DNA of 25,810 nucleotides from positions 1 to 25,810 of IMG/VR virus record IMGVR_UViG_3300010158_000282, one strand, 5' to 3'. The notes under the pieces were generated by a model. The model searched no databases, was not told where the DNA came from, and was given only the letters and a program-made list of their open reading frames with translations. The stretch comes from a virus. The position numbers and the translations under genes were made by a program. Positions 3-14,485 of this stretch are shown one piece after another (the first letter of the stretch is position 1; each line of letters begins with the position of its first letter).

Positions 3-77
3 GACAACCGCTCCTATGACCGTACTGCCAAACACGCGCTGGTCACCAACAAGCCTTTGAAGCCGAAGAAGAAATAA
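3..77 (+). CDS. C-terminal end of an unidentified upstream gene (partial)
   Basis: The reading frame is open from the window edge to a TAA at 75-77 and gives 24 residues ending in a basic tail, PLKPKKK. The TAA shares its last base with the ATG of the next gene (TAATG), the same junction type used repeatedly in this window, which supports this as a real gene end. A basic C-terminus next to replication genes fits a DNA-transacting protein, but too little is present to name it. Confidence 0.7.
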   Translation, partial: DNRSYDRTAKHALVTNKPLKPKKK

Positions 78-745
78 TGCAAGTACAGGAAAGCAGCTTC
101 ACTTACACAGGTCCGAAGGACGGCCCTAGTTGGCCGACTAGTTTAATAACCGCTAATGAAGCGGCCACACTACTTGGTATCGGCACTGATAGACTTAAAT
201 CTCTGGCTGAGTGTGAGTACGTACCGCACTATCGGGTCGATGGTGGAGAACCCATGTTCCGCGTTTCAGAAGTGAAGCGGTGGTGTGCGGAAAACCTTCT
301 TAAAATACACCCGGGTAAGCTGCTACCGCCGCCGATAATTGTGTGCCCCATGCCGGAACGTGTGGATAACCATATGTTGGTGCCGCACAGTATAAGAAAT
401 ATCATAGGATTATGCGACATAACCACGGAGTCCCGGCGTTGCGGTATTTACTTTTTGGTTAAAGACATGACGCTTATGTACATCGGACAGTCCGTAAACG
501 CAGCCGCACGTATTGCTACTCACGCATCCATATCCCCTCGTACCAACGAGCAAGACAAAGATTTCAATAAAGTTTTCTACTTGCAGTGGCCTGCTGATGA
601 TCTGGATAGGGTAGAAGGTGCGTTAATAAGGGCATTAAAACCCCCGCTTAACGGCAGAAGCACCAATGGCATGGTAAGCTGCCCCGGCTCCAACAAAACC
701 AACGACGATGCTAAAGTTTTATCCAACATAGGTTTTTCTCAGTGA
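77..745 (+). CDS. HTH plus GIY-YIG nuclease
   Basis: This 222-aa protein has two recognisable parts. Residues about 24-73 resemble a MerR/excisionase-like winged helix-turn-helix (TANEAATLLGIGTDRLKSL, then an FRVSEVKRW recognition strand). Residues about 121-195 are a GIY-YIG endonuclease domain: G123-I-Y125, then Y135-I-G137, the expected catalytic Arg (R145), the metal-binding Glu (E180 in RVEGALI) and the family's terminal Asn (N192 in PPLNG). All expected active-site residues are present, so the nuclease is probably active. The ATG overlaps the upstream stop and the 3' end overlaps the next start (GTGA), so it is an integrated cistron rather than a loose insertion. It could be a homing endonuclease or a host-DNA or repair nuclease; the fused HTH suggests site-selective binding. 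Confidence 0.85.
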   Translation: MQVQESSFTYTGPKDGPSWPTSLITANEAATLLGIGTDRLKSLAECEYVPHYRVDGGEPMFRVSEVKRWCAENLLKIHPGKLLPPPIIVCPMPERVDNHMLVPHSIRNIIGLCDITTESRRCGIYFLVKDMTLMYIGQSVNAAARIATHASISPRTNEQDKDFNKVFYLQWPADDLDRVEGALIRALKPPLNGRSTNGMVSCPGSNKTNDDAKVLSNIGFSQ

Positions 746-2127
746 CAATCCTCACCGGTTACCAGTGGACTGGCAAACTCAAGCCGTTCGCCCACCAGAA
801 GACCACGGCTGACTTCCTAGTCAACAATGACAAGGCGTTCTGCTTCAACGAGCAGGGTACGGGTAAGACTGCGTCGGTTATCTGGGCGGCTGACTACCTG
901 ATGAAAAGGGGTCTGGTTAAGCGGGTTTTGGTGTTGTGTCCGTTATCCATCATGCGGGCGGCGTGGCAGCAGGACCTGTTTAAATTTGCCATGCACCGCA
1001 CCTGCTCCATCGCCCATGGGGATGCGAAAACCAGAAGCAAGATACTCAAAGCCGGGTCGGAGTTCGTTATCATTAACTTCGATGGGGTGGGGGTCGTAAA
1101 AGACGAAATACTGGCTGGTGGGTTCGACCTGATAGTGGTGGATGAGGCTACGGCCTATAAGACGGCGTCTACTAATCGCTGGAAAATACTGAAAGAGATA
1201 GTAGTAAAAACTAACCCGCGCCTATGGCTCCTTACCGGTACCCCGGCAGCGCAGTCACCCATGGATGCCTACGGGCTTGGTAGACTGGGTAATCCTGATG
1301 GCACTCCGAAGTACATGGGGGTCTTTAGAGATAGCGTCATGTACAAGGTCTCCCAATTCCGCTGGGTGGCGAAGCCTCAGGCAGAAAAGATAGTGCATGA
1401 GGTGCTACAACCGGCCATACGGTTTGAGCGCAAAGACTGCCTAGACCTGCCCGAAGTGACTTACGCCGAGCGCGACTGCCCGCTGACGACGCAGCAGATG
1501 AAATACTACAAGCAACTGAAAAGTCAGCTACTGATAAGCAGTGATGGGGAAGAAGTCTCTGCCATCAACGCAGCGGCCAAGATGAGCAAACTCCTGCAGA
1601 TCAGCGGCGGAGCCGTGTACACGGATACTGGGGAGGTCTTGGAGTTCGACGTAACCAACCGTCTGGCTGCTGTGCTAGAGGTAGTGGAAGAGGCCTCGCA
1701 CAAATCCCTCGTCTTTGTGCCGTACACCCACACCATAAACCTGCTCAAAGAGTACCTAGAGAAGCATGGGGTGACCTGCGAAGTCATCAACGGCGCGGTG
1801 CCGGTGAACAAGAGGGGCGATATTGTCAACGACTTCCAGAGCAAGCCCGACCCCAAGGTCCTTATCATCCAGCCCCAAGCAGCGTCACACGGGCTCACTC
1901 TCACCGCCGCCAACAACATCATCTGGTATGCCCCAGTAACCTCCGTCGAGACTTATTTGCAGGCTAACGCTCGTATCAATAGACCCGGGCAATACAACCC
2001 CATGCTGATTACCCATATATGTGGTAGCTCGGTGGAGGCGAAGCTCTATGGGATGCTACGTGACAATATCACAAACCATAATAAGATAATCGACCTTTAC
2101 AGACAGGAACTCGCTTCCTCTCCTTGA
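742..2127 (+). CDS. SNF2-family DNA helicase/translocase
   Basis: This 461-aa superfamily 2 ATPase carries the full motif set. A Q-like motif lies near H18-Q19, Walker A is QGTGKT (38-43), motif II is VVDEAT (132-137), motif III is LLTGTPA (163-169), motif V is ASHGLTLTAANN (381-392) and motif VI is QANARINRPGQ (407-417). The QxxxRxxRxGQ form of motif VI and the compact size match phage SNF2-like helicases of replication modules. Such proteins translocate on duplex DNA and assist replication or recombination. The start is GTG at 742, overlapping the stop of the nuclease gene (GTGA), with no strong Shine-Dalgarno of its own, so translation is probably coupled. The primase-helicase gene downstream supports a replication role. 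Confidence 0.93.
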   Translation: MTILTGYQWTGKLKPFAHQKTTADFLVNNDKAFCFNEQGTGKTASVIWAADYLMKRGLVKRVLVLCPLSIMRAAWQQDLFKFAMHRTCSIAHGDAKTRSKILKAGSEFVIINFDGVGVVKDEILAGGFDLIVVDEATAYKTASTNRWKILKEIVVKTNPRLWLLTGTPAAQSPMDAYGLGRLGNPDGTPKYMGVFRDSVMYKVSQFRWVAKPQAEKIVHEVLQPAIRFERKDCLDLPEVTYAERDCPLTTQQMKYYKQLKSQLLISSDGEEVSAINAAAKMSKLLQISGGAVYTDTGEVLEFDVTNRLAAVLEVVEEASHKSLVFVPYTHTINLLKEYLEKHGVTCEVINGAVPVNKRGDIVNDFQSKPDPKVLIIQPQAASHGLTLTAANNIIWYAPVTSVETYLQANARINRPGQYNPMLITHICGSSVEAKLYGMLRDNITNHNKIIDLYRQELASSP

Positions 2128-2153
2128 CAATGTAAAGTAAGAAGCCTAACTAT
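2124..2153 (+). promoter_or_regulatory. Possible sigma70-type promoter before the 2176 gene
   Basis: A perfect -35 hexamer TTGACA (2124-2129) spans the stop codon of the helicase gene. A weak -10 (TAACTAT, 2147-2153) lies 17-18 bases downstream, in one of the few gaps of the early operon. The -10 matches consensus poorly, so this is tentative. It would allow the genes from 2176 onward to be expressed separately from the helicase. Confidence 0.35.
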
Positions 2154-2164
2154 CCGAGAGCAAC

Positions 2165-2178
2165 AAGGAGCAACCATG
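2165..2178 (+). promoter_or_regulatory. Ribosome binding site and start codon complementary to the small RNA
   Basis: The Shine-Dalgarno and spacer AAGGAGCAACC (2165-2175) pair without mismatch with GGUUGCUCCUU (7107-7117) of the predicted small RNA. The AUG (2176-2178) can add three pairs with CAU (7101-7103) across a three-base bulge. By eye, no other ribosome binding site in the window matches this well. That the pairing is used for regulation is an inference. Confidence 0.45.
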
Positions 2179-2595
2179 AGCGACGAAGCAGTAGAAGAGA
2201 CAGTGGACACCCTAGTCCATATCAAAGACTATATCCGCCTCCGAACCCTGCTGGCCCAGAAGGAAGAGGAATACGAAACGGCTATTGCCCCTCTCAAGCA
2301 GGAGTTTGATCTGACTGCGGCCATCCTACTCGGCATCTGCAACACGCAGAACGCAGACAGCATCAAGACACCGGCAGGTACTATCTCTCGCCGGGTACAG
2401 TCTCGGTACTGGACAAGCGACTGGGGCGCGATGTACGAATTCATCAACGAACACCATGCGCCGCATCTACTCGAACAGCGCATCCATAACAGCAACATGA
2501 AAGAGTTTCTGGAAGAGAACCCGGACGTTCTGCCAGCCGGTCTTAACAACGACCGCAAGTATGTCATCCAAGTCCGTAAACCAACCAACAAGTAG
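2176..2595 (+). CDS. Small phage protein with N-terminal coiled coil, function unknown
   Basis: This 139-aa protein has a charged helical N-terminal half (LRTLLAQKEEEYETAIAPLK) likely to form a coiled coil. The C-terminal half follows a pattern I recognise from uncharacterised phage proteins near replication genes: SIKTPAGTISRRV, a Trp/Phe-rich stretch, then KEFLEENPDVLPAGL and a closing beta strand (YVIQVRK). The start is set by a strong ribosome binding site, AAGGAG at 2165-2170, five bases before the ATG. This is one of the few early genes with its own strong site. The 11 bases at 2165-2175 (AAGGAGCAACC) are exactly complementary to the predicted small RNA at 7097-7182, so translation may be RNA-controlled. 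Confidence 0.85.
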   Translation: MSDEAVEETVDTLVHIKDYIRLRTLLAQKEEEYETAIAPLKQEFDLTAAILLGICNTQNADSIKTPAGTISRRVQSRYWTSDWGAMYEFINEHHAPHLLEQRIHNSNMKEFLEENPDVLPAGLNNDRKYVIQVRKPTNK

Positions 2596-2604
2596 GAACA
2601 CACA

Positions 2605-3489
2605 ATGAGCAAAGAAGTCAGCATCTTTAAGAACGGCGGTGCAGTCACCGCTGCCTCGCGTCGGCAGGTCTCGGACCTTACTAGGTCTATGGTATCTGCT
2701 ACCACCAACCGCCGTATCCAGACCAACACCAACGGTACTTTCCGCAAGATGGTCAACGGCGAACAGGTGGGCAACGCCATCCGTGGCGAGCTTAATGTCA
2801 TTATCATCCACGCACTTCCCAAGGTGTCCCGCACGTTTTACGCGGCGGCATATGATCCCGGTGCGGAACCCACTCTGCCTGACTGCTGGTCCAATCTCGG
2901 TGATAAGCCGGAAGCTTCGGCCCGGAATAAGCAGGCTGCTACCTGCCTAGATTGCAAGCAGAACATCAAGGGTTCTGGCGGCGGTGATCGCCGTTCTTGC
3001 CGTTATCAGCGCCGCATTGCGGTTCTTCTGGAAGGTGACGATAGCGGAGATATCTACCAGTTCAATGTCCCAGCCAAGTCCCTGTTCGGCAAGGGTGTCG
3101 GCAACGTGCATCCGTTTGAGAGCTACGTTAAGTATCTGGCGCATAACAATGCGTCCGTGGAAGGCGTGGTTACTACTGTTAGCTACGACCTGAATGCCGA
3201 CAGCATGGAGTTGCAGTTCAACGCCCTGCGCGAAGTGACCGACGAAGAGTACGCGCTTGTTCAGGAAGCTCAGGCCAAGCCAGAAGCCAAGTCCTACACC
3301 ATGCTCACCGTGGCGCAGGCTGATGGGGTCACCAAGCAGCCGAAGAAGGAAGCCGTAGCCCGTTCCGACGAGCCGGAAGAAGAGGCCGAAGAAGTAAAGG
3401 AACCCGTTAAGCGGGCTTCCAAGAAGGCCGAAGCCCCCAAGGCGAAAGCCGCCCTCTCTGATCTTGTTCAGGGCTGGGGTGAAGACTAG
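2605..3489 (+). CDS. Probable ssDNA-binding protein with a four-cysteine cluster
   Basis: This 294-aa protein has a predicted beta-rich core (residues about 60-210) containing four cysteines, C94, C114-x2-C117 and C132. They sit in the arrangement DCWSN...TCLDC...GSGGGDRRSCR, which I recognise from a widespread phage family near replication genes, often considered SSB-like. The cysteines probably bind zinc. The C-terminus is a long acidic/basic Glu-Lys-Ala linker ending in LVQGWGED. An acidic aromatic tip is typical of SSBs that recruit partner proteins. It lies between the helicase and the primase, with a modest AGGA site before the ATG. The SSB role is inferred from architecture and context; a recombination mediator is the main alternative. 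Confidence 0.75.
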   Translation: MSKEVSIFKNGGAVTAASRRQVSDLTRSMVSATTNRRIQTNTNGTFRKMVNGEQVGNAIRGELNVIIIHALPKVSRTFYAAAYDPGAEPTLPDCWSNLGDKPEASARNKQAATCLDCKQNIKGSGGGDRRSCRYQRRIAVLLEGDDSGDIYQFNVPAKSLFGKGVGNVHPFESYVKYLAHNNASVEGVVTTVSYDLNADSMELQFNALREVTDEEYALVQEAQAKPEAKSYTMLTVAQADGVTKQPKKEAVARSDEPEEEAEEVKEPVKRASKKAEAPKAKAALSDLVQGWGED

Positions 3490-3701
3490 TGGCTGGGTAC
3501 AGTACGAGCCTCATCAAGAAGAACAAAGAGGCAGACGGTAAGCTTCCCGGGGTAAAACTCGGGAGGCACTGTATCAAGAACGATATCCCCGTGGCGCGGG
3601 TGGCTTGGCTGTATAAAGTCAGTAGACAGACTGTCTATAACTGGTTCGTCGGTAAAGGGACGCCGCCTAGAGACAAGGCCGCGCACGTCAAATGGCTATA
3701 A
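3489..3701 (+). CDS. Small helix-turn-helix protein
   Basis: This 70-aa protein contains a likely HTH at residues about 33-60: IPVARVAWLYKVSRQTVYNW. The form 'A-hydrophobic-...-VSRQTVYNW' fits a DNA-recognition helix, followed by a basic C-terminus. The start is GTG at 3489, sharing a base with the previous stop (TAGTG), which argues for translational coupling to the SSB-like gene. It is the only small regulator-like protein in the window and so is a candidate for acting on the dyad at 7069-7087, but nothing in the sequence links the two directly. Confidence 0.7.
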   Translation: MAGYSTSLIKKNKEADGKLPGVKLGRHCIKNDIPVARVAWLYKVSRQTVYNWFVGKGTPPRDKAAHVKWL

Positions 3702-3967
3702 GTCTCGGTACCTTGCGCCAGCAACTTCTGCCCGGGCTAGAGGATATGATTATAGGCAAGACTACGCGCCAGAAAGCCAAAGAACTTAGGCATCTGGGTA
3801 TGGTCATGAACTGTAGAAGCCTAGAGATAGTGGGGCGGCAGCTAATGGATGCGAATGAACTTAGTAGTAAACCCATTAACTCCGTACCTCCGTGGTATAT
3901 CCAACCTCCGGGTAGCAGTACTATGGACTGGTCTGATTACTCCGAAGTTTCCCCCCTCCTAAAATGA
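3692..3967 (+). CDS. Small protein of unknown function
   Basis: This 91-aa open frame overlaps the preceding gene by 10 bases and ends 7 bases before the primase start, so it fits the operon spacing. The N-terminal two thirds look helical and basic (TLRQQLLPGLEDM, TTRQKAKELRHLG). The C-terminus is Pro/Trp/Ser-rich (VPPWYIQPPGSS). No motif is recognised. It has no obvious Shine-Dalgarno and is probably translated by coupling. Confidence 0.65.
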   Translation: MAISLGTLRQQLLPGLEDMIIGKTTRQKAKELRHLGMVMNCRSLEIVGRQLMDANELSSKPINSVPPWYIQPPGSSTMDWSDYSEVSPLLK

Positions 3968-3974
3968 TCCCCCC

Positions 3975-6890
3975 ATGTCCGACTTTGATCTTCTCAGCGC
4001 CGTGCAGTCCGACGAGGGCTGGTTCTGCGTCGTGGGTATCAAGGACAAGAGCGTCAAGCAGAAGTTTTATAAGACCAGAGAAGAAGTCGATCAGGCTGCA
4101 CGACAGCTTGTAAACAATAACATCAACGCCTTCTTCGGGGTAGCCAAGTACAAGGAGCCCACAAGCAGGAAAAAAGAAAACGTCCTAGACCTAAAAGCTC
4201 TCTGGCTGGATATCGACTGCGGCGAGGAGAAGGCGAAGGTCAATGAAAAGACAGGTAAGCCAGCCGGGTATGCCGATCAGGCAGCAGGACTTACGGCCCT
4301 TATGGCTTTCTGTAAGGGGACTGGCCTACCTCGTCCCATTGTTGTTAATTCTGGCCGTGGACTACATGTTTATTGGCCCCTCAAGAAGGCCGTAACCCGC
4401 GAAGAGTGGGAGCCGGTGGCGGATCGCCTCCGCCAGACATGTCTAAATAACAACCTTTACGTGGACCCTGCCGTTTTTGAGGCGGCGCGTGTTCTTCGCA
4501 TACCCGGAACCTTGAACTTCAAGGATGACCCGCCGGAAGAGGTGAAGGTCGTAAATTACGGAAACCCAGTCAGTTTAGGGGATTTCTCGGAAAAACTGGG
4601 TGGTGCCACGGCCCCTGTGGTCGCCAAGAAGCCAAACAAGCGACCCCTATCAGCACTCACGCTCGCCCTACGGGGCAATGAAACGACCCTTTTCGACAAG
4701 ATCATGCGCGCCAAACCCGGCTGCGCGCAACTTAAGTCATGTTACCAAGACCGGGCAACCCTATCAGAACCAAGGTGGTTTAATGCGCTCTCAATTGCCA
4801 AATTCTGCGAAGACAAAGACGTTGCTATACACGCTATCTCGGGGGACCACCCGGACTACAACCCCGCCGAAGTCGAAGCCAAAATCAGGCACATCGTTGG
4901 ACCCCACACATGCGAAGTATTTGAACGCAATAATCCGGGCGGTTGTAATGGGTGTCCTTATAAAGGAAAATTTAAAAGCCCTATCGCTCTTGGCAGAGAC
5001 CTCAGTAGCAAAAAAGAAGAAGCTGAAGGTGAAGAAGCCGAATATGAAGAAGGCGAAGAGCCCACGTCGTTTGAAAAAGAAATCCGTAAAATCCCGGCCT
5101 ACCCGCACCCATATGTAAAAGGCCCCACGGGCGCTATTCTTTTAGTAGAAAAAGAAGTTCGTAGTACCGATGGGGAACTAAAGAAAGAAACCGAAACTAT
5201 AGTCGTGTACGAATGCGCCCTGCAGATAGTAAAGCGTATGCACGACCCTGAACATGGCTATGTATTTGTCCTCAAGCATTATATGCCCAAGGATGGCATC
5301 AAGCAGTTTGTTATTCCTGTCTCCTGCATGGCCGACAAAATCGGGTTGCGGGTGGAACTGGCAAAATACAACGTACTCTGTAGTGATAAGAACTACGTAC
5401 ATCTAGCCGCTTACATAACGGCGGCGATCAAAAACCTACTTCATGAAAGAAAGGCAGAAGACATGAGACTTCAATTTGGATGGGCAGACGAGAACAGCAC
5501 CTTTATTATCGGGGATCGGGAGATTACCAAAGATGGTACCGCCCACAGCCCCCCTTCCACCGCTACTACAGAAATCGCATCGCGTATGGTGCCGTCTGGC
5601 TCCTTGGAGAAGTGGAAGGAAGTGTTTAATCTATACGGTAAGAAGGGTCTGGAGCCCCACGCTTTCGGCGCACTTACTGCCTTCGGAGCCCCACTGTTTG
5701 GCTTTCTTGGTCAGAGCGGTGCGATGATTAACCTTATCAATTCTCAGTCTGGGCAGGGTAAATCTACCATCCTTCACATGTGCAACAGCGTATATGGCCA
5801 CCCTAAAAAGCTTTGCTTTACCGGCGATACCCTTAATGGCTTCGTACACAAGCTGGGCGTACATAATAACCTGCCGGTCTGCCCCGATGAGCTTACTAAT
5901 ATTAAGGCAGAAACTCTTTCGGACATGATCTACTGCGTGTCCACTGGTAGCGGTAAGGATCGCATGAAGCAGTCCACCAATGCCCTCCGCGCAAACCATA
6001 CCCGGTGGAACCTGATAGCTCTTAGTACCTCCAATGCCTCCTTCTACGACAAACTCAACTTCCTGAAGAACAACCCGGACGGGGAGATGATGCGCGTAAT
6101 GGAGTACCACATTGAGCAGACTTCGGTACTGGACCCCACCTACGCCAAGCAGATGTTTGACCAGCAGCTTATGGAGAACCACGGCCACGCTGGCGATATT
6201 TACATCAAGTGGGTGCTTAATAACCTAGAAGAAGTTATCAGCATGGTGCGCGACCTGCAGATGAAGATAGACGCGGCGTTGAAACTTACCCAGCGTGAAC
6301 GGTTCTGGTCAGCCATTGTAGCGTCAAATATCTGTGGTGGGCTTATTGCCAAGAACCGCTGCAAACTCATGGACTGGGATATGAACAATATTTATCAGTG
6401 GGCTTGTAGTATGACGGAAGAACTACGCAAGGATGTGTCGCCCCCGATCCTTAACTCCATGGTCGTCATCGGTGACTATATCAACCGCAATCTGCAGAAC
6501 ATGCTCGTCGTTCAGGATGCTCCCGACCCTACAACCGGTAAGGCCCGTCTGCCCACCATGGAGCCTAGAGGGGAGCTTCTTATCCGTTATGAGCCGGATA
6601 CCAAACTGATGTACCTCTCAACCAAGCAGTTCAAGTCCGATTGCTCCAAGAGTCAGGTGTCCTATAAGGAGACCGTCAAGATGTTGGAAACCAAGGGCAT
6701 AATGAAGAAGGAACTGAATGGCACCGCGCGGCTCACCAAGGGTATGAGTAAGGGCATGAAGGTCAACTCACCTGTGGTTCATGCTATTGTGCTGGATACG
6801 TCCCACCCAGAGTTTGCTGGCATGATGGATAATATGGTGGCAGCGGCGACGAACGATACAGGCGGAGTAAGTGAAGCTAGCGGGGGTTGA
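3975..6890 (+). CDS. Primase-helicase: AEP-type primase fused to DUF927-like ATPase
   Basis: At 971 aa this is the replication core of the window. Residues about 1-210 look like an archaeo-eukaryotic-type primase: catalytic D79-x-D81 in WLDIDCG, the GRGLHVYW motif with H131, and the closing motif around D164 and R172-R175 (ARVLRIPGTLNF). Residues about 240-330 hold a Zn-type cluster (C250, C256, H311-x-C313, C324-x2-C327 in the form NPGGCNGCPYKG). An acidic Glu-rich linker follows (about 347-363). Residues about 380-760 match DUF927-type helicase ATPases: Walker A SQSGQGKST (590-598), Walker B-like PDEL (637-640) and a sensor-like NLIALSTSN. It would synthesise primers and unwind DNA at the fork. 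The start has no Shine-Dalgarno: the upstream bases are C-rich, GATCCCCCC. Re-initiation from the stop 7 bases upstream is therefore likely. Confidence 0.9.
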   Translation: MSDFDLLSAVQSDEGWFCVVGIKDKSVKQKFYKTREEVDQAARQLVNNNINAFFGVAKYKEPTSRKKENVLDLKALWLDIDCGEEKAKVNEKTGKPAGYADQAAGLTALMAFCKGTGLPRPIVVNSGRGLHVYWPLKKAVTREEWEPVADRLRQTCLNNNLYVDPAVFEAARVLRIPGTLNFKDDPPEEVKVVNYGNPVSLGDFSEKLGGATAPVVAKKPNKRPLSALTLALRGNETTLFDKIMRAKPGCAQLKSCYQDRATLSEPRWFNALSIAKFCEDKDVAIHAISGDHPDYNPAEVEAKIRHIVGPHTCEVFERNNPGGCNGCPYKGKFKSPIALGRDLSSKKEEAEGEEAEYEEGEEPTSFEKEIRKIPAYPHPYVKGPTGAILLVEKEVRSTDGELKKETETIVVYECALQIVKRMHDPEHGYVFVLKHYMPKDGIKQFVIPVSCMADKIGLRVELAKYNVLCSDKNYVHLAAYITAAIKNLLHERKAEDMRLQFGWADENSTFIIGDREITKDGTAHSPPSTATTEIASRMVPSGSLEKWKEVFNLYGKKGLEPHAFGALTAFGAPLFGFLGQSGAMINLINSQSGQGKSTILHMCNSVYGHPKKLCFTGDTLNGFVHKLGVHNNLPVCPDELTNIKAETLSDMIYCVSTGSGKDRMKQSTNALRANHTRWNLIALSTSNASFYDKLNFLKNNPDGEMMRVMEYHIEQTSVLDPTYAKQMFDQQLMENHGHAGDIYIKWVLNNLEEVISMVRDLQMKIDAALKLTQRERFWSAIVASNICGGLIAKNRCKLMDWDMNNIYQWACSMTEELRKDVSPPILNSMVVIGDYINRNLQNMLVVQDAPDPTTGKARLPTMEPRGELLIRYEPDTKLMYLSTKQFKSDCSKSQVSYKETVKMLETKGIMKKELNGTARLTKGMSKGMKVNSPVVHAIVLDTSHPEFAGMMDNMVAAATNDTGGVSEASGG

Positions 6891-7065
6891 ATACGACATA
6901 GTCTGGCAGAAGTTCCGGCGCGGGACTTCGCTCTTCTTCCCATGCCTAGACCCCCAAAAAGCCCGGGAAGAACTGGGTGTAGTTTTAAAAAGGCTAAATA
7001 TAAAGGTAGTTGTTAAAACTACTATTCAAGAAGGTGTAAAAGGCATTAGGGTTTGGCGGGTTTGA
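6871..7065 (+). CDS. Small phage protein, last gene of the early operon
   Basis: This 64-aa protein overlaps the primase-helicase 3' end by 20 bases and starts at GTG 6871 with GGAG at 6864-6867, an unusually tight 3-base spacing. The composition is basic, with an alternating pattern near the end (VLKRLNIKVVVKTTI, then GIRVWRV). It resembles small uncharacterised phage proteins ending in a '(I/L)RVWR' strand, and may be a small alpha/beta DNA-associated protein. Its stop codon lies inside the -35 box of the small-RNA promoter. Confidence 0.7.
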   Translation: MKLAGVEYDIVWQKFRRGTSLFFPCLDPQKAREELGVVLKRLNIKVVVKTTIQEGVKGIRVWRV

Positions 7066-7090
7066 CGAATACGCAAACCACGCGTATAGT
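7062..7090 (+). promoter_or_regulatory. Near-consensus sigma70-type promoter for the small RNA
   Basis: TTGACG (7062-7067) and TATAGT (7085-7090) each match consensus at five of six positions and are separated by exactly 17 bases. This is the best promoter I can see in the window. It points toward a terminator less than 100 bases away and there is no open frame between them, so its likely product is a short untranslated RNA starting around 7096-7098. Confidence 0.7.
7069..7087. promoter_or_regulatory. Dyad over the promoter spacer and -10 (possible operator)
   Basis: ATACGC (7069-7074) and GCGTAT (7082-7087) form a perfect 6-7-6 inverted repeat. It covers the spacer and reaches into the -10 box, where a bound repressor would block polymerase. 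Its size suits a dimeric HTH protein. It could instead be chance, since only one copy was noticed. Confidence 0.35.
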
Positions 7091-7096
7091 GCCATT

Positions 7097-7182
7097 TGGA
7101 CATGCGGGTTGCTCCTTTTGTCCTTCTTCTTGGTTGAAGATTCCCCAGACCCTCCCCCCGCCCTAACCGGCGGGGGTTTTTT
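7097..7182 (+). ncRNA. Predicted structured small RNA with an anti-Shine-Dalgarno loop
   Basis: A strong promoter and an intrinsic terminator bracket about 86 bases with no credible open frame. Three hairpins can be drawn by eye. SL1 pairs GGACA (7098-7102) with UGUCC (7119-7123) around a 16-base loop that displays GGUUGCUCCUU. SL2 pairs UCUUC (7125-7129) with GAAGA (7136-7140). SL3 is the terminator. A C/U-rich loop in a 5' hairpin is the usual layout of small RNAs that pair with ribosome binding sites. The loop is complementary to the start region of the gene at 2176, so it may repress that early gene in trans. The transcript also lies at the convergence point, antisense to any read-through from the - strand virion operon. 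Expression and function are inferred. Confidence 0.55.
7155..7182 (+). terminator. Rho-independent terminator ending the early operon and the small RNA
   Basis: CCCCCGCC (7155-7162) and GGCGGGGG (7169-7176) form an uninterrupted 8-bp G+C stem around a 6-base loop, followed by six T residues (7177-7182). The T tract is only on the + strand side. The reverse strand has no U tract after the hairpin, so it should stop early transcription but not clearly the converging virion operon. Confidence 0.93.
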
Positions 7183-10100
7183 ATGAGGCAGCGGCGCGGA
7201 TATCGCGCAGGATGTAGTCAGCCTCGTCCTGCTTGAAGTAGCTACCATACAGGCCGAGCCCATGACGTTCGATCTGGGCGTCTATGCTGTTGGAGATAGT
7301 ATCCCCGTCGATAACCATACCCGGGCGTGGGTACCGCTTGTTGTAGGCGCGTATCCGGTCCAGCGCATCCTTAACGTCTTCCTTGGTGTGCTTCTGGAAC
7401 AGGGTGGAAGTAAGTCTATTGAGGACTTGGTTCTTGGTATGGGTCTGCTCAAGGCTCTCGCCGGTACGGTTAAACTTCTCATCCTGCAGACGGGACAGGC
7501 GCTGCGGTTGCACCCCGAGAACCGAAGCCACAAAATGCAGATCATCGAAGTCCGTGGGCTTTAGGATAACGTCGCCGTTAGAAGTAGTTGCGCCTCTATC
7601 AGTGTGTTCGACAGCTTGCAATGTGCCCTTAACCAAGGCGGGGGAGAGTTTCTCCAACCCGCGCATGTAGTTTCCGTTGTCGAAGTCATCCATCGCCCCT
7701 GACATATTAGTACCAGCAGACACACCGGGGCCTAGGTTGGCTAGGATGAAATTCTTGGTGGTTTCCGCCCATGAGTTACCCTTCTGCCCTGAACGCAGCC
7801 ACATGTTATTAAACGAGGTTTTGGAACCCCAGTTCTGGTCCAGCATCGTAGAAATGGGGCCATACATAATCATATCGCTAAGGGTCACGGGGGGTCTGCT
7901 ACCAATACCCGGCACGGAAATATTCCCAAAATGCTCCGGCATGAATTCATAACGGAAGCGGCGATCAGAGTCATCGGCGGTCAGGGGGTTACGAACACGA
8001 CGCTTGCGCTTGGTGTCATCATCTTCAAGCCCGTCCAAAACCACGTCGATAGTAGCGGCTATGGTGGAATACAGGGGCTGGCCAAGAAGTCCGTGGAACA
8101 ACCCACCGATAAGAAGAACACCAGCAAGCTCGTTCATAGCCTGCATCTTTACCGCAGTCGTCTCACCCGCCATGGAGCGATAGGCATTCTCCAAGAAGAA
8201 CTTGGTGGTGTTGATGGCATACTGCTTGAATTGGAACAGGATACGACCTGCATTGTTCTTCATGAAGCTTGGGCGTTCGAACTCACTGTAGTCCCCAAGG
8301 GTATCGTTAATGGTATCTATGGCATCCTGAATGGATTCTTCAAAAGCTTTGGCGTCATCAAACTTAACGCCCGCCTTGGCCGCTGCGGCCTTCTTGGCAT
8401 TATAGGCTAGAGTGAAGGCGGACATACCGGTTATCTCACGGCTCAACTGTTCCATGGCGGCAAAGCCGGAAGTCAACACCTTATAGGCTTTATAAACCCC
8501 ACGTTTTGCGTCGTGGCCGATACCCGGCTCTGTGTCTATATCCAGAGGGGTAAGTTTCACATCCGTGAAAGAACTTGTGGGGGTGTCGTTAAACACGTTG
8601 TGTTCTAGAAGAGTTTTGTAGGCCCGCCCAGATACAGCATCGCCCATCACGCCGGGGGCGTTGCCCATCGAAGGCCACGTAAACACCGTCTTGCCGTTCT
8701 CCTGCTTGGTAAACCGCACAGTCTTCAATACGTTGGAGAACTTGCCAACTGTGGCCGCTGCAGGACCATACCCATATCTGGAACCCAGATTAGGCATAAC
8801 GCGGATAGGGATGGAGGTAGCCTGTGTAATTGCCGTAGCCCCACTGGTAAGCAGCATAAGGTGCGCGAAACGGTTTACTCCCTGCACAAGCCAACTGCGG
8901 GGTTTGGGGTTCAGCTCATCCTCAAACCGCTTGTTCATCTCGTCCACAGCGATCTTAAGCTTTTCGGAGATAGCGGGGTTAGCCTTCTCAGCATTGATCT
9001 TGGCCATCTTCATCTCAGCCCGGATAAGCGGGGCGTACTTGATCTTCGGCAACTGGTTTGAGTACTGGGAAATGGAAGACTCCAGCACCTTGAGAAAGTT
9101 CATGCTGAACCCGGGGACGTTTTCCGCCCGCATCTGGTTCTTACCCAAGCTTCTGGCGGGCAGGTGCGCCAACAGTACTTCGTTAAGAGAAGCCTTCATC
9201 TCCTGCTTTAGCGTATCCGGGTTAGCCCCCTGCAGTTTACCCTTATCAATAATGTCGTACAGCCTACTGACTACAGCACTGGGGTTGTTGGGGTCGTAAG
9301 AATTGTCTTCCGGCATGAACTCCGTGTTAACCAGATTGCGTATAGAAGCCAGATTGGTTGACTTTATACCGTCCCGCGTAAGTAGTTCTTTGATCTTGGC
9401 ATCACGCTTTTTCTGCGAGTCGAACCGGTGATACTCATACTTAGGACCACCAGTGTTCTCGTTTTCGCGCGAAGAGTAGCGAAGCACATAGTCGCCAAAC
9501 CGCTTGAAGGGGAAGTACTGCTCAACGGCTGACGGGTGAGGGGCTCCCATATAGAAATCTTCCCTAGGCGCACCAGCCTCGGCCTCTATGTTCTCATAAG
9601 CCTTCTTGATTTCATCCTTGTCAGCATCGTTGTCTACTTGCGCCATGGCGTTATCCAGCCACCTGCGCTTAAGCAAGGTATACATGTTCCGATAGTACCG
9701 GCGCACGTCGAGGTATAACTGCTGCCCGCCCTTATGGGTACCCAGCTCATCCCAAAGTTTCTTTATTTCATCTATGTCAGCCTGCCTCTTCGCTATGAGA
9801 GCGGATACCTTCTTGGTGCTAGGCAGAGTTTTTAGATACGCGAGGACGGGGTCGGAAGTCGCGGTGGGGTCTATGGAATTGAGACGGGCCTTGCTCATGA
9901 GCGCGCTCATAACCTTCTGCCCATAAGCCCCGTTATAGTCTACATACCGCTGAAGAAGTACGGAGCCAGACCGCATGAAGTTGTGACGCTCTGCAAGCAT
10001 CAGCCGGAGCAAATCTCTGCCTTTCTTAAACTGCGGGATACGCCCGCCCAACCACTTTATGAGGGTAGAAGAGGGCAGTTTATCTATCGTAAACTTAAAA

Positions 10101-13100
10101 ACCTTGGGGTCCAACGTCTGGAGTTTCTTCTCCAGAGAGGCGATAACGGGGTCAGCAGAATGCCCAAGCGTGGCTTCCCGCATGGCAGCGGTCATAGAAA
10201 CGGCGGTATTTGCCGTCTTCATCTTCTCAAGGGCCTGATCCGTCTGTGCCTCGGCCTCCGGCATTGTCTTGGGGGTTTCATTACCGATATTGCTGCCGTA
10301 CTGCACGGCTCCGGGCACACTCTCCACAGAAGGAGCAATCGTGTAATCGCGAGTGTTATTGTTCATGTACCGGACGAAAGCATCATCGGGAAGCCAGCCT
10401 TTATTCTTCGCCCTAGCGAAAAACCTACGAAGAGACTGGGCAACGCGGTAAAAGAACTTTTCGATGACGCTCTGCGGCTTAGACGCACTGGTCGTCCAAC
10501 GGGCCACTTGGTCTGCGTACCACTCCGAGAACGACTCCCAGTAATTGCGGCGCTCCGCAGCAGTCAGCTCTCTTGGTACAGAAGTACTACCAGCCGTCTC
10601 TCTGGCGCGAAGGGCATTGATAAGCCCGCGTGTATCCTTACCTTGAACAGACTTCAACCACTTGGCGTGGGCCGCCCGCAGCATAGCCTTCATCTCCGGG
10701 GAAGCGTTGGTAAACGCTGAAATCTCATGGGCGTGGCCCATCTCGTGGGCGATACGCTCTAGGGTCAACCCCGGCGAAGCCGGGTCATACAGGACGTAGA
10801 AGGTGTTCTTACCTACGTATCCAGACGAGCCCCACTTGGGATCATTCACATCTTCTTCCGGCACCACCAGCCCGCGCAGGGGGCCAGTAAACTTGTCTTG
10901 GTTCTTTCTGGCGTGGTTGATGGTGGAGACGTAGAGGTTCACCCCGGGCAGGAGAAGGTTCTTGAGTGCCGCTACCGTCTTAGCCAGACGAGCGGGCATA
11001 TCAGAGGAGGAAGAGAAGCCATCTTTGTCGAAGGTAACAAAGGGGCGCAGGGCATGTTCTTGTGCTTCGGCGGCTTCCAGACGGGCCTTGGCCGCACGGA
11101 GAGTTTCTGCGTTTTTCGCGCTTACGAAGTCCCCTTCTTCAGTGCCGCCGTAGCGGGTGTTATCCACATCCGACCTGCCCAGAACCCCGTCCACGATGGG
11201 GAGGTAAATAGGCTGGCCGTTTACGACATTGCGTCCTTCAATTAGACCTAGCTTACTATCCCCAAAGACAACCTTGCCGCCGAGGTTCTTGGCATGTTGT
11301 TCGATAGGCTCAAGACGAGAAGGACTAGTGTCTTCAGCAGGGATGCCAGCAGTGTCGGAAACCAAAGCCGGGAGGTCACTAAAAACATCCGCCGCATCAG
11401 TAGGGATATCGGGAGAAACCAACAAATCCGTAGATGGCTGAACAGCGCGCCTACCCCGGATAAGTACCTTGGGTTCTTTTTCAAGAGGTTTCGCAGACGC
11501 ATCCCAAAGCGCATCATTAGACACGTAGGCATCCGTGCCATCTGCTTCGGGGTCGAGTTCACCGGTCTCCTTATCAATAGCGTACTTTACGCCCTTTTTC
11601 GCTCTGGCCTGTACTCTACCGAATTCGTCTACGACATGCGTGGAAGAGTCGAAGTCATCATCAAGCCACGCCAACTCTTCCTGAATGGGCTCTTTAGTAT
11701 CGGAAGATACTTTGTTAGAAGTCTTTTTTTCTTTCGGCGTTTCCGGAAGATTTGAAAACAGGCCGAGTTGCTCGTGGGTATCATTGGCTCCCCAAGCGGG
11801 CATATTATCATGAAGGCCAACGGCTTCTAGAGCTTTAAGCCACTCGCTCTCGACCTCGTGTCTGTTTTTTAGACTAGCATAGTAACTAACAGCTCTTTCT
11901 TGGGGGGTGCCAACAGGAGCTATTTGGGTGCGTTTTCTATCCTTTACACGGGCACCGAGTGTCTGCATCAGGTTCCACTCGCCTGCGTCCTCAATGGTGT
12001 CTCTCTTGAGAAGGTCGAGCCGCTTTACGTCCGTCTTACGCTTGTTAAGAAGAGACTGCAGGGAAGCCATAGCGTTAATTTCGGGGTGCTGCGGTATGGT
12101 CTTGCTGTCTTTAATGAGCTTCTCCAACTCTGCGATATCCGCATCTTGGGTCGCCACTTCCTCTTTAAAGAGTTGGATCAGACGGGCGCGATCAGGACCC
12201 CGTAGGGACATAACAAGCGAAATAATACCGGGAGTATCAGTATACTTCGAAGTCTCGTTACGCATGTAGTTTACGGCGTCTTCCCGTTTACTCTTCAGTA
12301 AGTCCTGCATCGGCTCCATGGCAGTACCGGTGAGGCTATCAATCTCTTCGTCCACTGCAGTGCGACGGGCGTGGTCAAGCTGCCGGTTTCTGTCAGCCAG
12401 CACTCTGGCTCTGCGCTCCGCAGGGGTCTCGGGCTCCACTTGGGAAGCGTCAGGGATGCCGTGCTTGAAGATAAGGGGGGCTTCTACCTTGGGTTTTGCC
12501 GCGCCACGACCCTTTACCACGACGGAAGCAGGAGTAGCCGTTTCGGGCAGGTCTCCGAACAGACCGGGTTCACCAACACCCTTACCCTCCTGCGGGGCCA
12601 TCAAGTTCATCACCCAGCGGAGTGCGACCTCGGGGGGGACTTCGTCTTGCACCGCCAGTGTAGCTGCTTGGGTTATTTGCTTAGGCGTAGCGACAGAGTA
12701 TTCCTCTGGGTTCTTGTCAATTATATCTAATATGTTGGCTTTGGCAGTAGCAGTGCGTTCCTTACGAGGCGCAAGGGGGACAGTCTCCACCACAGGAGCA
12801 GAAGCAGAATTGTTAGCGGGAACGGCAGCGGAAGTATCAACAGCAGGCACACCGCCAAGAGGAGGCGGCCCACCAGAAGTATCTTCCCGTTCGAGTACCT
12901 GAACAAAAGCATCCTGCGGAGCAATACCACTTTTTACCAGCGCCTGAAACCTCTGCGCCTGCGGCTCTGATAACTTAATATTGCTGGGATTAACTTCTTG
13001 GTCTGTAGCGGGCGCGGTAACGGGAGCAGGAGCAGGAGCAGGAGCAGGAGTAGCGGGGGGTTCGGGGAGCTTATCAATGGTGGCCGCTACATTCTCTCTT

Positions 13101-14485
13101 ACGGCCTTCACATCATCCGTGGCTTTGGTTATTCCCGGAATAACCGTGGTATCAAGCCCAAGTACCGTCGCCGCTGCAGCCTCATGGTCCATGCCATGAA
13201 GTGCTACTAGCTGGTTTACCTGCTCGGTTTGCTCCGGAGAGAACTGCGGTTCTTCCTGCTTCTGGACTTCCTGCTCGACACCACTATGCTTCCCAAGCTC
13301 CTGCTCCGCCAGATATATGGAGTCATCAAGGGTATGCCCTTCGTCCTGCTGAATTTTCAGTGCCAGCATCTTCCCGGCATCGGATAGGGCTTCGAACCGC
13401 TTTTTTACGTCGTCATTAGTAGTGCTTATGTCAGTACTGGTGTTCGTGTCTGTCTTATTGTCTTCGCCCGCGAGGCCTTGGCGGGCAGCATTTCTGGTCT
13501 TCAATGCACCGATGGTACCAGCGGGGACACCAAATATGGACGTAAGCGCCAGTGCCCCAGTCGCGGCTTGCTTGTACTCCCCGATAGCGTCGTCATCCCC
13601 AAGGGGAAGACCAGCCTGCCAACGCTCCAAAACCTGTTGGGCTATTTCAGTAGGTACTTCTACAGCGGCACCCTCGACGATACCGCGAGTAATGCCTCCA
13701 GCCACAGTTTTAAGAGTGCCCTGCTGGGCGGCGGCAATAAGCTTTTCGGCAGCACCCTCCGCGCCCTTACCGGCTTTTTCGATGAGCGGTTTCACGAATG
13801 GGAGAGCCTTGACAAGGTGCTTAAGGACCCCGATCTCCACCATATCCAAAGCACCCTCACCAGCACCTGCTACAGCAGCCTTACCGACGTTTACATCTTC
13901 CGGAGTTTGACCCCTATCTATGGCGTCCTGTTGCTGTTTTGCCTGACGGGCTAGGCCTTGGATCATATACTGAGAAGCACTGGTACCTAGGAATGCAGAC
14001 CCGCTGGCAACAGTACCAGCGGTAAGCGTGGGGACAATAGCCGGGGCACCAACAACAGAAGCACCCTCGCCAACCGCCGCCGCGCCAAAAGGAAGTCCCG
14101 CAGCCCAACTTGCCGCAATGGGAGCGGCCATCTGCCCCAAAGAGCCACCAGCTAGTTCCTTCAGGTATTCCCAGTTCTCGCCCTTGCCAAAGTCACCCAC
14201 GCCCTCACCGTGCTTGGACTTTGTAGCTTCAAGAAGGGCTGTCCGGTTATCGTCCGAGGGGTTAGAGGCATAGGCAGTAGCCTCAGGAAGCGCGCCAAGG
14301 GTAGACGCAGCATCTTTGAAAGAACCAAAGAAGCCGGGGCGTTCGGGTGCTTCGGGGGTCGGTGCCTTACCTGCCTCCGGATGAGCTTTTAGGATTACAT
14401 TACGCACTTGTTCAGGCGAAGCGCCGGGAGGTCCTTCGGTAGTGTAAGTTATGCCGTTAGGTGCGGTAATCTGGTACGTCGTCAT
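7181..14485 (-). CDS. Giant polyvalent virion protein with zincin metalloprotease motif
   Basis: At 2434 aa this takes more than a quarter of the window. It starts with a short domain (YQITAPNGITYTTEGPPGAS) common at the N-terminus of large phage ejection proteins. A Gly/Ala hydrophobic stretch follows (about 115-180), then long Pro/Ala/Glu-rich linkers. A zincin active site HEMGH lies at 1247-1251 (HEMGHAHE), with a downstream Glu in SFSEWYAD (E1321) placed to be the third metal ligand. The C-terminal half is typical of 'large polyvalent proteins': long helices, a hydrophobic segment near 2113-2145 (LLIGGLFHGLLG), then a closing region with VLGVQPQRLSRL and a final basic helical tail. Such proteins are packaged in the virion and injected with the DNA to act on the host early in infection. 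It is the last gene of the virion operon, 3 bases after the preceding stop, with only a weak Shine-Dalgarno. Confidence 0.87.
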   Translation of the reverse strand: MTTYQITAPNGITYTTEGPPGASPEQVRNVILKAHPEAGKAPTPEAPERPGFFGSFKDAASTLGALPEATAYASNPSDDNRTALLEATKSKHGEGVGDFGKGENWEYLKELAGGSLGQMAAPIAASWAAGLPFGAAAVGEGASVVGAPAIVPTLTAGTVASGSAFLGTSASQYMIQGLARQAKQQQDAIDRGQTPEDVNVGKAAVAGAGEGALDMVEIGVLKHLVKALPFVKPLIEKAGKGAEGAAEKLIAAAQQGTLKTVAGGITRGIVEGAAVEVPTEIAQQVLERWQAGLPLGDDDAIGEYKQAATGALALTSIFGVPAGTIGALKTRNAARQGLAGEDNKTDTNTSTDISTTNDDVKKRFEALSDAGKMLALKIQQDEGHTLDDSIYLAEQELGKHSGVEQEVQKQEEPQFSPEQTEQVNQLVALHGMDHEAAAATVLGLDTTVIPGITKATDDVKAVRENVAATIDKLPEPPATPAPAPAPAPVTAPATDQEVNPSNIKLSEPQAQRFQALVKSGIAPQDAFVQVLEREDTSGGPPPLGGVPAVDTSAAVPANNSASAPVVETVPLAPRKERTATAKANILDIIDKNPEEYSVATPKQITQAATLAVQDEVPPEVALRWVMNLMAPQEGKGVGEPGLFGDLPETATPASVVVKGRGAAKPKVEAPLIFKHGIPDASQVEPETPAERRARVLADRNRQLDHARRTAVDEEIDSLTGTAMEPMQDLLKSKREDAVNYMRNETSKYTDTPGIISLVMSLRGPDRARLIQLFKEEVATQDADIAELEKLIKDSKTIPQHPEINAMASLQSLLNKRKTDVKRLDLLKRDTIEDAGEWNLMQTLGARVKDRKRTQIAPVGTPQERAVSYYASLKNRHEVESEWLKALEAVGLHDNMPAWGANDTHEQLGLFSNLPETPKEKKTSNKVSSDTKEPIQEELAWLDDDFDSSTHVVDEFGRVQARAKKGVKYAIDKETGELDPEADGTDAYVSNDALWDASAKPLEKEPKVLIRGRRAVQPSTDLLVSPDIPTDAADVFSDLPALVSDTAGIPAEDTSPSRLEPIEQHAKNLGGKVVFGDSKLGLIEGRNVVNGQPIYLPIVDGVLGRSDVDNTRYGGTEEGDFVSAKNAETLRAAKARLEAAEAQEHALRPFVTFDKDGFSSSSDMPARLAKTVAALKNLLLPGVNLYVSTINHARKNQDKFTGPLRGLVVPEEDVNDPKWGSSGYVGKNTFYVLYDPASPGLTLERIAHEMGHAHEISAFTNASPEMKAMLRAAHAKWLKSVQGKDTRGLINALRARETAGSTSVPRELTAAERRNYWESFSEWYADQVARWTTSASKPQSVIEKFFYRVAQSLRRFFARAKNKGWLPDDAFVRYMNNNTRDYTIAPSVESVPGAVQYGSNIGNETPKTMPEAEAQTDQALEKMKTANTAVSMTAAMREATLGHSADPVIASLEKKLQTLDPKVFKFTIDKLPSSTLIKWLGGRIPQFKKGRDLLRLMLAERHNFMRSGSVLLQRYVDYNGAYGQKVMSALMSKARLNSIDPTATSDPVLAYLKTLPSTKKVSALIAKRQADIDEIKKLWDELGTHKGGQQLYLDVRRYYRNMYTLLKRRWLDNAMAQVDNDADKDEIKKAYENIEAEAGAPREDFYMGAPHPSAVEQYFPFKRFGDYVLRYSSRENENTGGPKYEYHRFDSQKKRDAKIKELLTRDGIKSTNLASIRNLVNTEFMPEDNSYDPNNPSAVVSRLYDIIDKGKLQGANPDTLKQEMKASLNEVLLAHLPARSLGKNQMRAENVPGFSMNFLKVLESSISQYSNQLPKIKYAPLIRAEMKMAKINAEKANPAISEKLKIAVDEMNKRFEDELNPKPRSWLVQGVNRFAHLMLLTSGATAITQATSIPIRVMPNLGSRYGYGPAAATVGKFSNVLKTVRFTKQENGKTVFTWPSMGNAPGVMGDAVSGRAYKTLLEHNVFNDTPTSSFTDVKLTPLDIDTEPGIGHDAKRGVYKAYKVLTSGFAAMEQLSREITGMSAFTLAYNAKKAAAAKAGVKFDDAKAFEESIQDAIDTINDTLGDYSEFERPSFMKNNAGRILFQFKQYAINTTKFFLENAYRSMAGETTAVKMQAMNELAGVLLIGGLFHGLLGQPLYSTIAATIDVVLDGLEDDDTKRKRRVRNPLTADDSDRRFRYEFMPEHFGNISVPGIGSRPPVTLSDMIMYGPISTMLDQNWGSKTSFNNMWLRSGQKGNSWAETTKNFILANLGPGVSAGTNMSGAMDDFDNGNYMRGLEKLSPALVKGTLQAVEHTDRGATTSNGDVILKPTDFDDLHFVASVLGVQPQRLSRLQDEKFNRTGESLEQTHTKNQVLNRLTSTLFQKHTKEDVKDALDRIRAYNKRYPRPGMVIDGDTISNSIDAQIERHGLGLYGSYFKQDEADYILRDIRAAAS
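13023..13050. repeat. GGAGCA hexanucleotide microsatellite inside the giant gene
   Basis: Four perfect GGAGCA units are followed by GGAG. On the coding (-) strand they encode an alternating Pro-Ala linker (PAPAPAPAP). Length variation here would change the linker in multiples of two residues and keep the frame. Confidence 0.9.

Follow-up and report, generated by a model that had tools for sequence, protein, structure and literature searches.

Introduction

Phages are known to encode short RNAs that act on messages of the same phage. The sar RNA of P22 (68/69 nt) and the c4 RNA of P1/P7 (77 nt) act on ant mRNA, and the OOP RNA of lambda (77 nt) acts on cII; of these, sar interferes with translation initiation (PMC12197685). 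The functional phage sRNAs collected in Table 1 of a 2025 review were found singly, in phages that had been cultured or in prophages, most of them temperate (PMC12197685). In alphaproteobacteria, SuhB/MmgR and AbcR are anti-Shine-Dalgarno sRNAs that are short, are built of stem-loops that include the terminator, and carry unpaired CU-rich motifs (PMC7143759). In Vibrio cholerae, OppZ and CarZ are RNAs from the 3' ends of operons that are released by RNase E and inhibit translation of their own operon transcript (PMC7398697).

Here we examine a predicted small RNA of a virus whose 25.8-kb IMG/VR record, analysed as a whole, is called the window. Working from comparative sequence alone, we delineate an sRNA family that is conserved among uncultured phages, and we predict a target for it. 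Having both makes an RNA brake on phage early genes directly testable.

A predicted RNA between two convergent gene blocks

The plus-strand and minus-strand gene blocks of the window run head-on into each other and meet at 7066-7180 (Table 1). The 64-aa protein encoded at the edge of the plus-strand block is strongly conserved and ends in GLRxWR; throughout this phage group its gene immediately follows that of the primase/helicase. The protein has no match in Pfam, PHROGs or NCBIfam. The gene that approaches from the other side is the last of the late block and is convergent with the sRNA in most relatives. Its product is 2434 aa long and has no Pfam match.

A preliminary description of this DNA had proposed a stand-alone small RNA gene at this meeting point, and most of what it read by eye was borne out by calculation. 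The TTGACG-N17-TATAGT promoter at 7062-7090 matches at 10 of 12 positions. The 8-bp stem followed by six T residues is a strong intrinsic terminator with G-C in 8/8 pairs, and the computed fold is identical to the three ordered hairpins that had been suggested. The RNA of the window has a minimum free energy of -32.6 kcal/mol versus -25.0 for shuffles (z -2.6), with 2/200 shuffles folding as well, and the UUGCU portion of the seed loop is predicted to be unpaired.

It had also been claimed that nothing in this interval can be a protein gene, and we likewise found no gene that fits on the plus strand of 7066-7180. On the minus strand, the window has an ORF of 25 codons at about 7025-7101 with a Shine-Dalgarno sequence. 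In the window only, the complement of the CUCCUU motif described below stands 3-9 nt ahead of the start of this ORF. A hidden minus-strand gene, with its Shine-Dalgarno on the other strand, was considered as the cause of the motif and rejected, as a comparable ORF is present in only 3/55 clusters of relatives.

Table 1. Positions of the predicted RNA, its parts, its predicted target and the surrounding genes in the window
Feature	Position	Strand	Remarks
Replication-type block	77-7065	+	SNF2 helicase, primase/helicase and others
Predicted target site AAGGAGCAACC	2165-2175	+	ribosome-binding site of gene 2176, directly before ATG
Predicted main target gene, 139 aa	2176-2595	+	PHROG 13900; replication block
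Conserved 64-aa gene	6871-7065	+	last gene of early block
-35 element TTGACG	7062-7067	+	overlaps stop codon of 64-aa gene; same place in L001
-10 element TATAGT	7085-7090	+	17-nt spacer
Predicted small RNA, about 86 nt	7097-7182	+	ends placed by the -10 (5') and the T-run (3')
5' hairpin, seed in loop	7098-7123	+	stems vary among relatives, pairing retained
Seed GGUUGCUCCUU, anti-Shine-Dalgarno plus specific flank	7107-7117	+	perfect complement of 2165-2175
Second hairpin (UCUUC/GAAGA)	7125-7140	+	not clearly conserved in L001
Intrinsic terminator	7155-7182	+	8-bp stem 7155-7176, then TTTTTT
Convergent late-block gene	7181-14485	-	stop codon overlaps terminator T-run
Structural block	25.8 kb down to 7181	-	late genes

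Conservation in related phages

Relatives were collected with one primase query, which gave 80 viral loci, and a second query, which gave 80 more, some of them on the same contigs. The junction was readable at 146 loci, and the compared set, limited to gaps of 40 nt or more, comprises 55 non-redundant clusters. The order of primase, 64-aa gene, short gap and convergent gene is kept in most related loci, and the arrangement first noted in the window, an RNA at the convergence of two blocks, recurs in related phages. The element is kept at the junction in the 55 clusters, with a terminator-like T-run in 48 of them. No such gap is present in L004/L005, L028, L064/L102 and L068, and L007/L008 have a short element only, without CTCC. 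In Pseudomonas phage Rollin, a cultured distant relative, no 64-aa gene could be recognised and the element is missing, and a nucleotide search of cultured phages left the region unmatched.

Two observations were made along the way. The 3' half of the sRNA model, comprising a hairpin and the terminator, matches a second place in several relatives (G015:C1:7579-7629, G017:C1:4641-4691 and G013:C1:7662-7713; E 7e-5 to 0.008). These genomes perhaps have another such element, or the terminators are simply alike. The single match in a cellular genome was the replication block of a relative on an 8-kb contig of an Actinomycetota MAG (L163, JAFMIT010000073.1), which is either a hint at the host or a mis-binned phage contig.

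The RNA bodies without the terminator fold to a mean of -12.1 kcal/mol versus -8.8 kcal/mol for dinucleotide shuffles (paired p 3e-9). The hairpin that bears GCUCC is built on 24 distinct stems. Its own arms pair over 5.2 bp on average, versus 3.7 bp when arms are swapped between phages; these pairs were counted by script because alignment A2 places the length difference outside the loop. Subfamily I has an extra 5' hairpin in which the stem varies and pairing is kept (AACAG/CUGUU, GCAGA/UCUGC, GUAGGUC/GACCUAC and others). Pairing in this hairpin was taken from individual folds because alignment A1 leaves it unaligned. The preliminary description had named conserved promoter and stem pairing in relatives beforehand as the test on which it should stand or fall, and both are found in the 55 clusters, where stems change and still pair.

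CTCCTT occurs in 39/55 clusters versus 4.2 in shuffles, and GCTCC in 36 of 55 versus 6.7. The reverse motif, AAGGAG, is absent from all 55 clusters. As RNA, CUCCUU is complementary to the core of the Shine-Dalgarno sequence and can be called an anti-Shine-Dalgarno motif. As is general for trans-acting antisense sRNA genes, the locus has its own promoter and an intrinsic terminator around a non-coding RNA, and a seed that lies exposed and is complementary to the region where translation of another gene begins. The comparison argues strongly for a small RNA gene.

Predicted targets among the early genes

The seed has perfect 11-nt complementarity to the site directly before gene 2176, the best match among 17 gene starts, and outside the sRNA gene this is the only 11-mer match to the seed. 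Cofolding the sRNA with the gene 2176 site gains about 14.7 kcal/mol over the separate folds. At the counterpart of gene 2176, L017 has GUUUGCUCC with GGAGCAAAC, L049 has GCUAGCUCC with GGAGCUAGC, L094 has GUUAGCUCCUUCGU with ACGAAGGAGCUAAC, and L100 has CUAUCUCCUUG with CAAGGAGAUAG.

Matches of at least 9 nt were found at the gene 2176 counterpart in 24/49 clusters, and at four neighbouring control genes in 0-1 of 52-55 clusters, with start codons that were picked automatically and are possibly imprecise for some control genes. Pairs of an sRNA with its own gene 2176 counterpart match over 7.88 nt on average versus 6.65 nt when permuted (sd 0.20; maximum 7.39 in 2000 permutations). The excess sits on the specific flank (2.66 versus 1.34 nt), not on the Shine-Dalgarno core. 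In longer relatives the counterpart ranks 1/90, 1/72, 1/57, 1/67, 2/76 and 3/84 among gene starts. L001, the closest relative, has no match at this gene. Co-change of sRNA and target was not significant when only disjoint sister lineages were compared (11/20 and 8/15), and lineage pairs that differ by presence or absence were too few. Among the phages compared, the complementarity is gene-specific and clade-specific, and fine-scale compensatory evolution with the target is unsupported by the sister-lineage tests.

The family of the gene 2176 product, phrog_13900, is named 'minor head protein' in PHROGs, yet the gene sits in the replication block. A relative of this product in L164 weakly matches the Mu Gam and Sipho_Gp157-like models, and the head label may be wrong.

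The second match is a gene for an AAA ATPase, called MoxR-like on the strength of its sequence, in genomes long enough to include it; the window ends before this gene. Perfect matches at the MoxR-like gene extend over 18 nt in the phage of L086, 13 in that of L084, 12 in that of L119 and 11 in several (permutation p 0.0003). In L040 and L044 the match is made by the linker UUGUUUCUCCU. The linker of L035 (G026) is without CUCC (UUCUUCUC), and the ribosome-binding site of its MoxR-like gene is AGGAGAATCAA versus AGGAGAAACAA in L040/L044, changes that could possibly reflect a coupled loss. Across 12 genomes, sites of at least 9 nt occur at 32/371 early gene starts versus 8/436 late ones, a total of 40 versus 3.7 for shuffled sRNAs. 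sRNAs swapped in from other phages also score well in several of these genomes, because early genes share similar ribosome-binding sites.

The comparison with relatives shows a conserved promoter, structure and seed, and complementarity that is gene-specific, and we consider it probable, with some reserve, that the RNA belongs to a new family of phage trans-acting antisense sRNAs that repress translation of a small number of early genes of the same phage. Where the early, replication block ends, a sigma-70-type promoter belonging to the RNA itself would drive transcription of about 86 nt, which would stop at the intrinsic terminator, ahead of the head-on late block. The 5' hairpins and linkers would present the CUCCUU seed with its specific flanking bases. 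The seed would then pair in trans with the ribosome-binding site of an early gene. In the window this site is AAGGAGCAACC, ahead of gene 2176; in some relatives the ribosome-binding site of the MoxR-like ATPase gene would be a further partner. Pairing would hide the Shine-Dalgarno sequence and so repress translation. The predicted RNA sits at the downstream edge of the very block in which its main target is encoded, and repression would therefore amount to negative feedback or a timing brake on early genes. The preliminary description had offered no function; the complementarity suggests one, in that the RNA is probably a built-in brake on the gene 2176 protein. Transcription, pairing in the cell, repression and its timing are the parts of this scheme that we infer.

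A bolder version is possible, though we put it forward only tentatively. Two changeable seeds, one in the hairpin loop for the Gam-like gene 2176 and one in the linker for the MoxR-like ATPase, might shut early-gene translation on a timer in widespread uncultured phages. If true, an RNA circuit would control several genes as one regulon during infection, whereas the known RNAs are mostly lysogeny regulators with a single target.

The clade L100-L162 is mostly without strong phage targets, and there the RNA may have other mRNAs or the host as its target. CUCCUU is kept even there, as would be expected if the main targets of a conserved phage sRNA were host mRNAs, with CUCCUU broadly blocking host ribosome-binding sites in favour of phage translation and the phage matches being secondary. 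Several known phage sRNAs do act on host mRNAs (PMC12197685). However, long gene-specific complementarity with clade-specific flanks is unexpected of a general host blocker, and we regard host mRNAs as rather unlikely main targets.

A promoter within a conserved coding sequence

Only 4 sites as good as 7062-7090 were found on both strands of the window, and because these score equally well the promoter match alone is weak evidence, so that the relatives decide. In most clusters a -10-like TATACT lies 1-4 nt past the stop codon of the 64-aa gene; in columns 3, 4, 6, 7 and 8 after the stop, T is found in 46, A in 50, A in 44, C in 39 and T in 42 of the 55 clusters. In relatives the Leu-Arg codons of the conserved GLRxWR end supply the -35 (TTTACG or TTGCGN). 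The Leu codon over the -35 is TTA or TTG (TTR) in 41/45 clusters (binomial p 8e-18), against a background of 29.6% TTR among Leu codons in neighbouring primase genes and 8-41% at other Leu columns of the same 64-aa gene. As judged from codon usage, protein constraint is not the explanation for this choice, and DNA-level selection for a promoter is. A promoter embedded in protein-coding codons is thus readable from codon choice. Because the clusters are not fully independent, the p-values of this promoter comparison overstate its strength. In the window and L001 the usual -35 position is lost, and an equivalent promoter lies about 18 nt downstream, still next to the hairpin.

The element comes immediately after the block's last gene, where a terminator is expected, and its promoter score taken alone is unexceptional. 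Both points would suit an element that serves the early operon only as a structured, mRNA-protecting 3' UTR with a terminator; the promoter-like sequence would then be little used and there would be no role in trans. Against this, TTR over the -35 and the position-fixed -10 point to promoter selection, and the promoter moved in the window and L001 with its distance to the hairpin kept. A 3' UTR of this kind predicts neither CUCCUU nor the match to a target, and we find the idea improbable.

The early operon may nevertheless contribute to the RNA. The preliminary description called the gene stand-alone, and this holds as regards its own promoter; as to sole origin it goes too far, since read-through from the upstream operon would also carry the RNA as a 3' UTR. 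A further proposal keeps the target but has the RNA cut from the long operon mRNA in the style of OppZ and CarZ, either alongside transcription from its own promoter or in place of it. Its location at the downstream end of the operon with gene 2176 fits, and such feedback has a precedent in Vibrio (PMC7398697), but with a conserved promoter present the main route need not involve processing, and we regard this origin as very unlikely. Despite the convergent position and a size near that of lambda OOP (77 nt, PMC12197685), we give hardly any credence to an antisense RNA to the 3' end of the late operon or a replication-primer type of transcript as once proposed for OOP, because the RNA ends at the late gene stop codon, so that only untranslated read-through RNA could pair with it, and neither predicts the conserved CUCCUU or the gene 2176 match.

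Comparison with known RNAs

A trans-acting repressor of early genes, the explanation we favour, can be set beside described RNA families. In Rfam, no family scored above threshold for the window or the tested relatives. With the SuhB/MmgR model (RF00519; threshold 41 bits) L030 scored 34.4 and the window 15.9. The likeness of L030 comes through the CU-rich strand and the terminator, whereas the first stem of the model does not fit the L030 hairpin. With the anti-hemB model (RF02837; threshold 49.5 bits) the window scored 17.1 and several relatives 19.6-22.1; the two stems, the terminator and the CU-rich stretches are alike, but the stems do not fit. SuhB/MmgR and AbcR are chromosomal, in contrast to the present RNA, which is phage-encoded. 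From its sequence features the phage RNA appears to work like MmgR and AbcR, with membership below threshold. In the open-licence literature we found no description of this phage RNA. We would class it as a new sRNA family, a phage anti-Shine-Dalgarno sRNA that would be aimed at the phage's own early genes.

No sequence match between sar, c4 or OOP and the phage RNA was found. Like them, it is a short phage-encoded RNA complementary to an mRNA of its own phage. They are found in temperate phages and act on one lysogeny-related gene, whereas the targets predicted here are early replication-type genes; no lysogeny gene was identified beside the RNA, which lies about 4.5 kb from gene 2176 between the replication and structural blocks. 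It also differs in having an anti-Shine-Dalgarno seed and in not being antisense by overlap. As with OppZ and CarZ, the RNA would act on the operon at whose 3' end its gene lies, on the same strand and in the same block, with co-transcription presumed; unlike them, it has a conserved promoter of its own. By analogy, among phage RNAs it would work most like sar and c4, and lambda OOP, and by position it recalls OppZ and CarZ.
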